From NCBI GenBank assembly GCA_021791715.1, contig JAJYWB010000008.1, forward strand, positions 1 to 64,000: a stretch of 64,000 nt of DNA, in the 5' to 3' direction. The notes under the pieces were generated by a model that worked only from the letters and a program-made list of their open reading frames with translations, ran no database searches and was not told where the DNA came from. The position numbers and the translations under genes are program-made. Below, one piece after another: positions 32,632 to 35,973 of the stretch; positions within the stretch are counted from its first letter, which is position 1, and every line of letters starts with the position of its first letter. Source of the DNA: Planctomycetota bacterium. Lineage in GTDB: Bacteria > Planctomycetota > Planctomycetia > Isosphaerales > Isosphaeraceae.

Positions 32632-34182
32632 TTACAATTTGAGGAGCCGGGTCGCCTCGTCGACTCCGGGGGCTGGGAATCCGTGTTCGCTCGCGGTGAC
32701 GCGCGCCAGCGCCGCGAGATGGCGCCACTTGTACGCGGGCCTGGTCGTCGCGAATTCCTCGACGACGGTTCGGTAATACTTCTCGGCGTGGAGCGCTCCG
32801 TCCTCGCTGATCGCGTATCGCAGCATCAGGTCGAACGCGGGGCGCGGGGGAAGATCGAGCTCGCCGTATCGATGAATAATCGCACAAGCGCGAGTTTGCT
32901 CGTTCGCCTTGATCGCGACCTCGGCCTCGCGCAAGAGCGATTCGGGCTTGAGGCCGATAACCGATTCTCGGTGTTCGGCGAAGGGATACGGTTGCGGGTT
33001 TTGCCCCTCGGCCTGTCCCGCGGTGTGATAAGCGCCGACGATCAGGCTCGCGACGGAGTTGCGGCGATCGCTCACGCGGGAGATGTTCCGCCACGCGTTC
33101 GACGCGTCCGACGCGTGGACCCCGACCGACGCTCCGTGCACGCTCCCCTTCGGTTTTGCGGGAGAATCGTCGCGCCGGCGTCCCGGATCGTGCAAAACGA
33201 GCTGATTCGCCGCGAGCGAGATCGCCTCGCCGATCGCCTCGTGCGAGATTCCGTCGGCCAACGCGTCGGCGACGGCCTCGGCGGCTTGCTCACGCGTCGA
33301 CGCGTAAACGATATGACTCATCCGATCGATCCACGCGTCGTCGGGAACGCGTTCTTCCGCGGCGCCGCTTAAAACCCCCTTGCGATCGAGCAGCCGTGGA
33401 AGGATCGAGCGGAGCGGATCGTCGCCGCCGTTCCTCCTGATCGCCTTCTCCTCGTCGACGCAATAACGCACCGATTGCCTGAGAAGCGTGTGAGCATATT
33501 CTTTGCCCGTGATATCCAGCAAAACCCACGATCGCCACGCCAGAACCACGCGGTGAACGTTTACATGATCTTGAACCGCATATTGAAGTTCGTTGAACGC
33601 ATCGGGAAGCGGACCGCGCGCGATCGCCGCGAACGTCCGTTCGGCCTCGTCCATGTTTTGGCCGCGGATCGCCGCGCGGAGCGCCCTGGCGTCGGGGCGC
33701 GATTCGGACGAAGGCGAATCGATTTCGATCGCGTGCAGCGTCTCGCGCGATCCTCCGCCCGATCGCTGGATGTGATCGGTGTTGCGATACAGAACCTTCA
33801 ACACGGGGAGGGCGCGGCGGGAATCGGCGAGTTCGCGCGACATCTGAAGCGCCGGAGCGAGCGCCATGATCGCGTGGTAGCCGTCGTAATCTTGGCCGCC
33901 GAACGCCCGAGCGTTCGCCAAAGCCGCGGCGGAAACAAGCTCGCGAAGTTCGGTTCCTTCGTTCATCTTTTGAACGACGACCGTCAGAAATCGATCAATC
34001 GGCGTTTGCGCCATCAGATCGACGAGGGGCTCGATCGGTCCGAACGTCAGCCGGTCTTTCTCCTCCCTCGCGGTAACGGGTTTGGCCAATCCCAAATCGA
34101 GCGCGACCGACGATCCGACCCCGGCGACCAGCATTCCCTTGCCGACCTGGGCGAGGAAATCACGACGACTTCGACGATTCAT
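32632..34182 (-). CDS. Tat-exported helical protein of unknown function
   Basis: 516 residues from ATG 34182. The leader MNRRSRRDFLAQVGKG followed by LVAGVGSSVAL is a Tat signal. The rest is mostly helical, with repeated A-x-A-rich stretches (ELRELVSAAALANARAFGG, DRMSHIVYASTREQAAEAV, DALADGISHEAIGEAISLA) and several His residues (VQDHVNVHRVVLAW). No family is recognised, although the second half resembles carboxymuconolactone-decarboxylase-like helical packing only vaguely. It is a single gene with its own terminator. Confidence 0.8.
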   Translation of the reverse strand: MNRRSRRDFLAQVGKGMLVAGVGSSVALDLGLAKPVTAREEKDRLTFGPIEPLVDLMAQTPIDRFLTVVVQKMNEGTELRELVSAAALANARAFGGQDYDGYHAIMALAPALQMSRELADSRRALPVLKVLYRNTDHIQRSGGGSRETLHAIEIDSPSSESRPDARALRAAIRGQNMDEAERTFAAIARGPLPDAFNELQYAVQDHVNVHRVVLAWRSWVLLDITGKEYAHTLLRQSVRYCVDEEKAIRRNGGDDPLRSILPRLLDRKGVLSGAAEERVPDDAWIDRMSHIVYASTREQAAEAVADALADGISHEAIGEAISLAANQLVLHDPGRRRDDSPAKPKGSVHGASVGVHASDASNAWRNISRVSDRRNSVASLIVGAYHTAGQAEGQNPQPYPFAEHRESVIGLKPESLLREAEVAIKANEQTRACAIIHRYGELDLPPRPAFDLMLRYAISEDGALHAEKYYRTVVEEFATTRPAYKWRHLAALARVTASEHGFPAPGVDEATRLLKL

Positions 34183-34647
34183 GTGCGATCTCCTTGAAAT
34201 CAAGCAATGCTCATGCCGCAACGCTGGATTGTTCTTTTCACCATGAAAGACGACGCGACGATCGAGATTCTGGGACCGCTCTCGACGATCGACATCGAAT
34301 TCGATCCCGAACGATCGCCGACGCGTTCGACCCCGAGAGATCGGCGACGCTAAACCTCATCTTACCGAACCGACGCCGGCGGAAGTAAAACAAAAAATTC
34401 CAAGAATCTCGATCAACTAATTTATGATAGTTTTTACATATAAATGGTGTCTACCTAGGTTCGGTCGGGTTCGCCTGGCTCGTTCGGTTTAGATTGAGGA
34501 GCGCACGCCGAGAGTGATTTGATCGTCGCGCGATTCTCGCCTCTGGGATCGAGCGTCGCGGATGATAAGATACGTTTCATTCGCGGCTCGTCCTCAAGGC
34601 GCGGCGAATCGCTCGTTCGAGACTCATTCGCTTATGGGGTGATTTTT
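34183..34647. other. Divergent intergenic region
   Basis: No gene is seen between the Tat-protein gene (minus) and the selenoprotein gene (plus). An AT-rich patch at about 34390-34460 (TTTATGATAGTTTTTACATA) is the likely promoter area. GGGGTGA at 34636-34642 sits five bases before ATG 34648. Confidence 0.5.
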
Positions 34648-35973
34648 ATGCTTCTAAATCGATCGTGTCGCGTTCTGCCGGCGTTGTCGGCGGTTTTCTG
34701 GGGGATAATCGCCCTGATCGCGCCTTACGGAGCGGTCGCGGCCGAAGCGCCGCCGCGATCGAACGCCGAGCTTGTGATCGGATTTCCGCCGATTCCCGAG
34801 ATTGAAGCGGCTCGGCTCGCATTCGACCGGTTCAAAAAGCTCGAAGTCGGCGAGATGTTTATCGCGATCATCGAGCACGGATCGGATATGGGGCCTGGAA
34901 CGGGCTGGTTTCATCCCACGCTCTCGCGTTACGACTGGAATTGGCTTGCGAAACGATGTGGAGTCGACCCCTCGGCGGCGATTCCTCGCGACAAGTTTCC
35001 CGGTTCGGACAAGGCGTTCGATCGGCTCGATCGCGACCACGACGGTCTGATCAAGCCCGACGACTTCGATTGGTCCGAATCGTCGCCATATCTTGAACGA
35101 TTTTACATGGAAAACATGCGATTTCGCATGATTGATTCCAACAGCAACGGGCAAGTTTCGTCGATCGAGTGGGCCCGGTTTTTCCAGCGTGCGGCGAAGG
35201 GAAAATCGTTTTTGACTCCCGACGACCTGCGCGAAGCGTTCACGCCTCGCCCCGCGCCCGCCGCCGATCCCAAACAAGCCGCCGCGTCCGAAGGCCCCAG
35301 CCGCGCCGTGCTGCTTAAAGGGCTCGCCGAGGGAGAGGTCGGTTCCTGGTTCGAGGGGCCGAAATTGAACGATAAGGCGCCCGATTTCACCCTCACGACG
35401 CACGACGGCAAAGAACAAATCACGATGTCTCAATTTCGTCGAGACAAACCGATCGTGCTTGTTTTCGGCAGCTTCACGTGAGGGCCGTTCCGATCCCAGT
35501 TTGGGATCATCGAAGATATGTACCGACGTTACGGCGATCAGGTCCAATTCTTGGCGGTGTACGTGCGTGAGGCGCATCCGATCGACGGCTGGCGGATGAG
35601 TTCGAACGACCGCGCGGGGATCGCGATAAAACAGCCGACGAAGCAAAACGAGCGAGAAGCCGCGGCGCACGCTTGCAGCGGTCGGCTTGAAACTTCGATC
35701 AAAATGGTCGTCGACGAAATCAACGATCGCGTGGGGAACGCTTACAGCGGCATGCCCGACCGGCTTTATTTGCTCGACGACGAAGGTAAAGTCGCGTTCA
35801 AAAGCGGCCGAGGACCGTTCGGCTTTCATCCCGGCGAGCTCGAACAAGCTCTTTTGATGATGCTTCAAGATCGAACCGATTCAAGCAAACCGAACGATCG
35901 ACACGCCCAAGCCAAGCCGACCGACCTCAAGCTGGACGCCGAACCTCGTCGAGAGATCAAGCCTTCACGTTGA
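34648..35973 (+). CDS. EF-hand/iodothyronine-deiodinase-like selenoprotein (in-frame TGA = Sec278)
   Basis: 441 residues if TGA 35479-35481 is read as selenocysteine. A signal peptide (about 1-32) is followed by two EF-hand loops (128-139 DRDHDGLIKPDD; 163-174 DSNSNGQVSSIE) and a thioredoxin-fold domain. The TGA falls in LVFGSFT-U-GPF, matching the deiodinase active site FGSCT-U-PPF/PSF. Deiodinase-like sequence continues in the same frame: FLAVYVREAHPIDGWRM, then KMVVDEINDRVGNAYSGMPD, RLYLLDDEGKVAFKSGRGPF and HPGELEQALL. A bacterial SECIS-like hairpin follows the TGA. If UGA is not decoded, the product is a 277-residue EF-hand fragment. Substrate is unknown; thyroid hormone is unlikely in a bacterium, so peroxide, thiol or dehalogenation chemistry is open. 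Confidence 0.85.
35482..35514 (+). promoter_or_regulatory. Bacterial SECIS-like stem-loop after the UGA codon
   Basis: GATCCC (35492-35497) pairs perfectly with GGGATC (35503-35508) around the loop AGTTT. A lower helix TTC/GAA can extend it across a small internal loop. The apical loop begins 17 bases after the UGA (spacing 16) and has G at its second position. Bacterial SECIS rules as published require a G among the first two loop bases and a spacing of about 16-37, so this fits at the lower limit. The hairpin lies within coding sequence, as bacterial SECIS do. Confidence 0.7.

Follow-up and report, generated by a model that had tools for sequence, protein, structure and literature searches.

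The in-frame UGA at positions 35479-35481 of the window (the whole stretch of planctomycete DNA analyzed here, 64,000 nucleotides long) is in all probability decoded as selenocysteine (Sec); on the sequence evidence, we put the probability at roughly 97%. Decoding would proceed via a SECIS element and use the genome's own SelA, SelB, SelC and SelD. The gene encodes a deiodinase-like protein fused to an EF-hand module, and the product is predicted to be exported. A preliminary description of this DNA had proposed just such an exported selenoprotein, and this core claim passes the computational tests suggested with it, namely a search for the Sec machinery, an analysis of conservation downstream of the UGA, and a comparison with relatives.

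Reading frame and gene layout

With the internal TGA read as Sec, translation of 34648-35973 on the forward strand yields 441 codons and a terminal TGA. Codon 278 is the single internal TGA, and the frame around it is open on either side, which bears out the earlier claim of one in-frame TGA in an otherwise continuous gene. The catalytic position of mouse Dio3 and Dio2 aligns to codon 278, so that the TGA was also correctly placed at the deiodinase active site. The features of the locus are as follows (evidence in brackets).

34636..34642, + strand: possible ribosome-binding site GGGGTGA, 5' of the ATG at 34648 (suggested by the sequence)
34648..35973, + strand: selenoprotein coding sequence with signal peptide, EF-hand module and deiodinase-fold domain (translation, PF00837, NF038285, dN/dS)
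34648..34743, + strand: predicted export signal, residues 1-32, a hydrophobic core followed by AVAA (sequence; helix 4-27 of the structural model)
35029..35064, + strand: EF-hand loop DRDHDGLIKPDD, residues 128-139 (Pfam EF-hand matches)
35134..35169, + strand: EF-hand loop DSNSNGQVSSIE, residues 163-174 (Pfam matches)
35356..35853, + strand: deiodinase-like thioredoxin-fold domain, residues 237-402 (PF00837, E-value 1.7e-28; AF2 model)
35479..35481, + strand: in-frame UGA, read as selenocysteine U278 at the catalytic position (translation, Dio alignment, tree, codon survey)
35492..35508, + strand: putative bacterial SECIS hairpin GAUCCCA/GUU/UGGGAUC, starting 11 nt past the UGA (comparison of Sec and Cys forms, covariation)
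35674..35676, + strand: Cys343 (U+65), conserved distal Cys and candidate resolving residue (homologue comparison)
35971..35973, + strand: terminal TGA, ordinary stop (translation)

The predicted export-type leader at the N-terminus of the protein reads MLLNRSCRVLPALSAVFWGIIALIAPYGAVAAEA. Mechanical ORF calling splits the gene in two, as had been anticipated, with the pieces at 34519-35481 (TTG start) and 35518-35973 (ATG start) and not at the expected 34648-35481 and 35484-35973. An antisense ORF of 404 amino acids (34654-35868, - strand) overlaps the selenoprotein gene and has the look of a shadow ORF. The divergent neighbor (32632-34221, - strand) encodes 529 amino acids without a Pfam match; it is 91% identical in L132, an independent assembly of a relative, where the gene order is kept. 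The upstream neighbors in general (an SDR dehydrogenase, a DUF374 protein and the 529-residue protein) are conserved between the two assemblies, and none of the three provided a functional clue. An Rfam search of the locus gave no match.

Selenocysteine machinery and conservation in relatives

All components of the Sec machinery that the preliminary description had asked about were found. A genome search identified a tRNA-Sec with UCA anticodon (70.1 bits), SelA (504 bits) with SelB adjoining it, and SelD (348 bits). The SelD gene itself has an in-frame UGA in the active site (CAG-U-AGK; L018:1396-2757, - strand, contig G000:C129), and a SelW-like gene with a CxxU motif (CAT-U) lies directly 5' of it. 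Across relatives, all 20 tested genomes with a Sec form had selA (19 above the cut-off, one with the gene split across two contigs), compared with 1 of 7 genomes that have Cys forms only.

The UGA is conserved, and so is the sequence behind it. L132, which shares the upstream gene order, contains an 82% identical gene with TGA at the same codon, which argues against a chance occurrence. The dN/dS ratio between the two genes falls from 0.285 before the TGA to 0.148 after it, indicating purifying selection on the downstream part; five further pairs of Sec genes behaved alike. Together with the PF00837 match, which crosses the TGA, this substantiates the claim that homology continues in frame. 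Relatives with an ordinary stop and no conservation beyond it, which would have spoken against the selenoprotein, are contradicted by L132 and its downstream ratio. Among the 166 homologues for which the codon at the catalytic site could be read, it was TGA in 98, TGC in 50 and TGT in 18, a ratio that does not estimate natural frequencies because members of the set were fetched partly for showing TGA. The proposed alignment with deiodinases and Cys homologues thus gave Sec or Cys at this site in all 166, and never another codon.

Putative SECIS element

A bacterial SECIS is expected as a hairpin just past the UGA whose apical loop contains G, and the window gene has such a hairpin with a GUU loop. 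The A-GUU-U apex recurs in this genome in the SECIS of the SelW-like gene. Compared with dinucleotide shuffles, the minimum free energy of the hairpin was not significant, and a comparison of Sec and Cys forms in a fixed register was used in place of this test. As plain folding energy is unremarkable, the support for the SECIS is comparative.

Within the EF-hand family, 21 of 22 Sec genes but 0 of 63 Cys genes can form 6 or more of the 7 stem pairs (Fisher test 5e-19, with the true significance lowered by the relatedness of the sequences). Synonymous shuffling within the same family gave stem z-scores of -1.84 for Sec and -0.24 for Cys genes. Stem covariation in 15 deiodinase-like Sec genes, chosen for this hairpin register, was 0.574 versus 0.181 after shuffling; 0 of 500 shuffles scored as high, and slid versions of the stem reached at most 0.12. 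Of 85 Sec genes taken without regard to register, 48% had 6 or more of the 7 pairs when either of two fixed registers was allowed; elsewhere in frame within these genes, the figure was 2.8%.

Machinery, conservation, hairpin and selA co-occurrence together make it very unlikely that the TGA is an ordinary stop, a sequencing error or the mark of a pseudogene, with a shortened EF-hand protein as product and a nonfunctional 3' half. Other genes of the window do usually stop at TGA, as does this gene at its end, but the internal TGA is shared with an independent assembly at 82% identity and recurs at the same codon in the 98 homologues, the hairpin covaries in the TGA forms, and the genome has the full Sec machinery; we rejected a pseudogene or ordinary stop on the dN/dS values and the codon distribution.

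Domain architecture and fold

The catalytic domain is deiodinase-like by sequence and by predicted structure. Residues 237-402 match PF00837 (T4_deiodinase) across the TGA with 100 bits against a gathering threshold of 27, far above Redoxin and AhpC-TSA (PF00578, 3.4e-7). The best PDB matches by sequence were mouse Dio3 (1e-18) and Dio2 (4e-18). In the AF2 model (mean pLDDT 87.5), U278 is located at a helix start, as in thioredoxin-fold enzymes, and the best structural matches were Dio3 (4tr3) and Dio2 (9h48), followed by ResA and AhpE, with DsbE also near.

In a set of 170 homologues, T277, E308 and H310 are conserved at about 99%, position 278 is Sec or Cys throughout, and 158 have a distal Cys at +58 to +72. 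The EAHPxDGW insertion motif of deiodinases is nearly invariant. The bacterial proteins thus share with animal DIO1-3 the fold, the Sec position, the T-U-x-P-F motif, the EAHPxDGW loop and a distal Cys. They differ in that the position of Dio3 H219 is Pro (P330) in 93% and that of the Dio2 substrate-site residue F224 is Pro (P370, the cis-Pro position) in 99% of the 170 homologues, in that Phe or Tyr replaces the proximal Cys, and in the bacterial SECIS just past the UGA. The window protein, moreover, has EF-hands and is predicted to be exported, whereas DIO1-3 are membrane-anchored.

The EF-hand loops at residues 128-139 and 163-174 are as first described. Both are canonical 12-residue calcium loops with an acidic position 12, and the module is predicted to bind calcium. 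D128 and D139 are invariant in the alignment rows that cover them, and G168 and E174 are conserved at 98% and 91%. Two further loops in relatives are degenerate in the window protein.

The fusion as such is already catalogued, as residues 65-408 match NF038285 (339 of 347 model positions, 473.5 bits against a cut-off of 250). This model, 'deiodinase family protein' (deiodinase_rel), has the same EF-hand plus deiodinase architecture. Its name has no selenoprotein label and its best-scoring genomes carry Cys, whereas the window member has Sec.

AhpD-like partner

Genes of the EF-hand-deiodinase family are frequently linked to an AhpD-like sequence. At 26 loci such a sequence was fused or abutting, and at 22 more it lay on the same strand at most 1 kb away, altogether 48 of 87 loci (about 55%), compared with 0 of 23 control loci from the window's own genome. 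Wherever a Sec-deiodinase locus had an AhpD-like gene, the latter contained Sec too. Three loci (L133:5448-7952, L134:5386-7989 and L136:5917-8502) are single ORFs with two in-frame TGA codons, one each for Sec in the deiodinase and AhpD-like domains.

The module was modeled as a bilobal double AhpD that resembles Sestrin2, AhpD and Bmp8, and 32 of its 33 members match TIGR01926 (peroxidase-related). Among solved structures, that of the debrominase Bmp8 is closest to the Cys/Sec lobe (E-value 3.3e-6, aligned at CxYCxxH). With AhpD and the AhpD-related (seleno)proteins of TIGR01926 and NF041238, the partner has the AhpD fold and the CxY[C/U]xxH motif in common; it differs from TIGR01926 and NF041238 proteins in being a tandem double AhpD, in scoring below the curated cut-offs, and in being fused to or located beside a deiodinase-like gene.

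No AhpD-like gene was found near the window gene within 64 kb, and a partner for it is therefore assumed. Contig C113 of the same genome has three full-length AhpD modules. The first is fused to a Cys paralogue of the window gene in a predicted selenoprotein of 891 residues (L055:7532-10207, G000:C113), which comprises EF-hand, Cys-deiodinase and tandem AhpD-like parts and has its TGA at CFY-U-MGH, the second Cys of CFYC. The second module stands alone, with an in-frame TGA (CFY-U-MGHSEM; L220:5762-7162), and the third, also stand-alone, has Cys and the lobes in reverse order (L220:1299-2633). ORF callers cut the L055 gene at its TGA. Pilin-like N-terminal-methylation proteins are encoded around the L220:5762-7162 gene, which is separated from the Cys paralogue by a few kb.

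Past the UGA of the AhpD-like module, the Sec forms L055, L133, L134, L136, L052, L137, L145, L151 and L220 share the sequence CUCGCGGUCGCGGG, which was absent from the Cys AhpD forms that we looked at. It is probably a SECIS, and its GGUC loop is the same as in the second deiodinase SECIS register.

Proposed function and alternatives

For the function, we lean towards an exported seleno-peroxidase or thiol-redox enzyme with an AhpD-type partner, favoring peroxide-type chemistry. The protein would run a selenol redox cycle, peroxiredoxin- or deiodinase-like, with Sec278 as nucleophile. Placed at the start of a helix, next to Thr277 and with Glu308 and His310 close by, Sec278 would attack a peroxide-type or other oxidized substrate, and the distal Cys343 would resolve the selenenylated intermediate. 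An AhpD-type CxxC/CxxU partner, fused or adjacent in relatives and encoded on C113 here, would then re-reduce the enzyme. The EF-hands with Ca2+ would probably stabilize or regulate it outside the cytoplasm.

This redox role is suggested by the fold (nearest to Dio3 and Dio2, then to ResA and AhpE), by the conserved Glu308, His310 and distal Cys, and by the AhpD linkage. Against it, Cys343 is about 8 residues off the animal distal Cys in the sequence alignment. The animal residue is found 69-76 positions after Sec and has no detectable role in DIO1 (PMC9141512). The Glu and His retained in the loop also count against it, as they are deiodinase proton-relay residues too, which keeps dehalogenation in play. 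With peroxiredoxins (AhpC-TSA/AhpE) and ResA, the window protein shares the thioredoxin-fold core, and AhpE and ResA are among its top structural matches, but the sequence match is much weaker than that to PF00837, and the peroxiredoxin signature PxxxTxxC is absent from the active site, which reads FGSFT-U-GPF. The protein may work like a peroxiredoxin without being filed as one.

The main rival to the redox enzyme, though unlikely on balance, is an enzyme that reductively dehalogenates small molecules carrying iodine or bromine. As in animal deiodinases, Sec278 would abstract the halogen; the partner of AhpD type would either regenerate Sec278 or be a second, Bmp8-like thiol/selenol dehalogenase. 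Its standing as main rival derives from the retained deiodinase loop, with the nearly invariant insertion motif, and from the partner's active lobe, which among solved structures is closest to Bmp8 (E-value 3.3e-6); Dio3 and Dio2 are, in addition, the closest solved structures of the catalytic domain. However, Pro replaces Dio His219 in 93% and Dio2 Phe224 in 99% of the bacterial proteins, AhpD-family proteins without known dehalogenase role match the module comparably, and no halogen-metabolism gene was recognized beside the annotated genes.

The pocket roles of Dio3 His219 and Dio2 Phe224 are those given in PMC11592359. The change of H219 to Pro is compatible with deiodination, since the DIO1 mutant H174A stays active, H174 being equated with H219 by its place in the loop. 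Deiodination itself is nevertheless not supported by the comparisons, given the replaced animal pocket residues and a genomic partner that is a redox protein of the AhpD type.

A specific version, in which the deiodinase-like domain and the AhpD/Bmp8-like partner make up an exported system with two sites, for seleno-dehalogenation or the handling of halogens, appears doubtful. If true, one calcium-binding protein would unite two unrelated folds, each abstracting halogens by thiol/selenol chemistry, and in some planctomycetes (L133, L134, L136) this protein would have two selenocysteines.

Slightly less probable still is a role outside the cytoplasm as a thiol-disulfide oxidoreductase or repair enzyme of the ResA/DsbE type, with proteins as substrates instead of peroxides or halides. 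ResA and DsbE are the next structural neighbors, position 370 has the thioredoxin-type Pro, and an export signal is predicted; the protein, however, has no CxxC (the catalytic residue is followed by G/P-P-F), it retains the deiodinase insertion, and it matches PF00837 far better than Redoxin or AhpC-TSA.

Distribution, evolution and relation to known families

In a tree of 97 members, three changes between Sec and Cys suffice, one of them in the outgroup; Sec is basal, and the Cys forms make up two derived clades. Sec was thus likely ancestral in the EF-hand family and replaced by Cys twice, a direction that falls short of proof because the tree is a quick one with open forks. The window gene lies among the basal Sec branches, and its genome has both types, this Sec gene and the C113 paralogue with a Cys deiodinase domain. 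According to their records, the relatives are planctomycete MAGs, including Isosphaeraceae and Singulisphaera, a group to which the host probably belongs too.

The Sargasso Sea study of 2005 (PMC1088965) already described deiodinase-like selenoproteins of bacteria, and current reviews list them (PMC13188914). The Sargasso Sea and GOS 2008 proteins, as far as these reports were available to us, resemble the window protein in the PF00837 domain, the catalytic in-frame UGA and the bacterial SECIS (PMC1088965, PMC2398784). EF-hands are nowhere mentioned in PMC1088965, and a linkage to AhpD is not described in the available parts of the two reports. The literature that we searched contained no work combining deiodinase, EF-hand and planctomycetes, and assigned no function to bacterial deiodinase-like proteins since 2005.

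The expectation that such a selenoprotein would be unusual in a planctomycete did not hold, given that NF038285 covers the fusion, that relatives have been on record since 2005 (PMC1088965), and that Sec forms are common in Planctomycetota. The suggestion of a new family branch fared better in part: the Sec members look ancestral and are an apparently undescribed part of NF038285, even though that model already includes the fusion. Within the literature searched, four points are new: that the EF-hand family has Sec members, that these probably hold an ancestral place in it, that AhpD is linked to the family, and that some fusions contain two Sec.

The window protein belongs to a large, overlooked planctomycete group that probably carries out redox rather than hormone chemistry. 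The family supplies a recurrent AhpD-type partner (CxxC/CxxU), a candidate resolving Cys and natural Sec/Cys pairs in one genome, which makes the role of bacterial deiodinases directly testable, and it bears on the origin of animal deiodinases from redox enzymes. There is also an annotation gap: standard ORF calling cuts such genes at the UGA, and databases will therefore be biased towards the derived Cys forms of a family that seems to have had Sec originally. At one further locus (L048:1084-2019), a PDZ domain takes the place of the EF-hands at the N-terminus of a Sec deiodinase-like domain.
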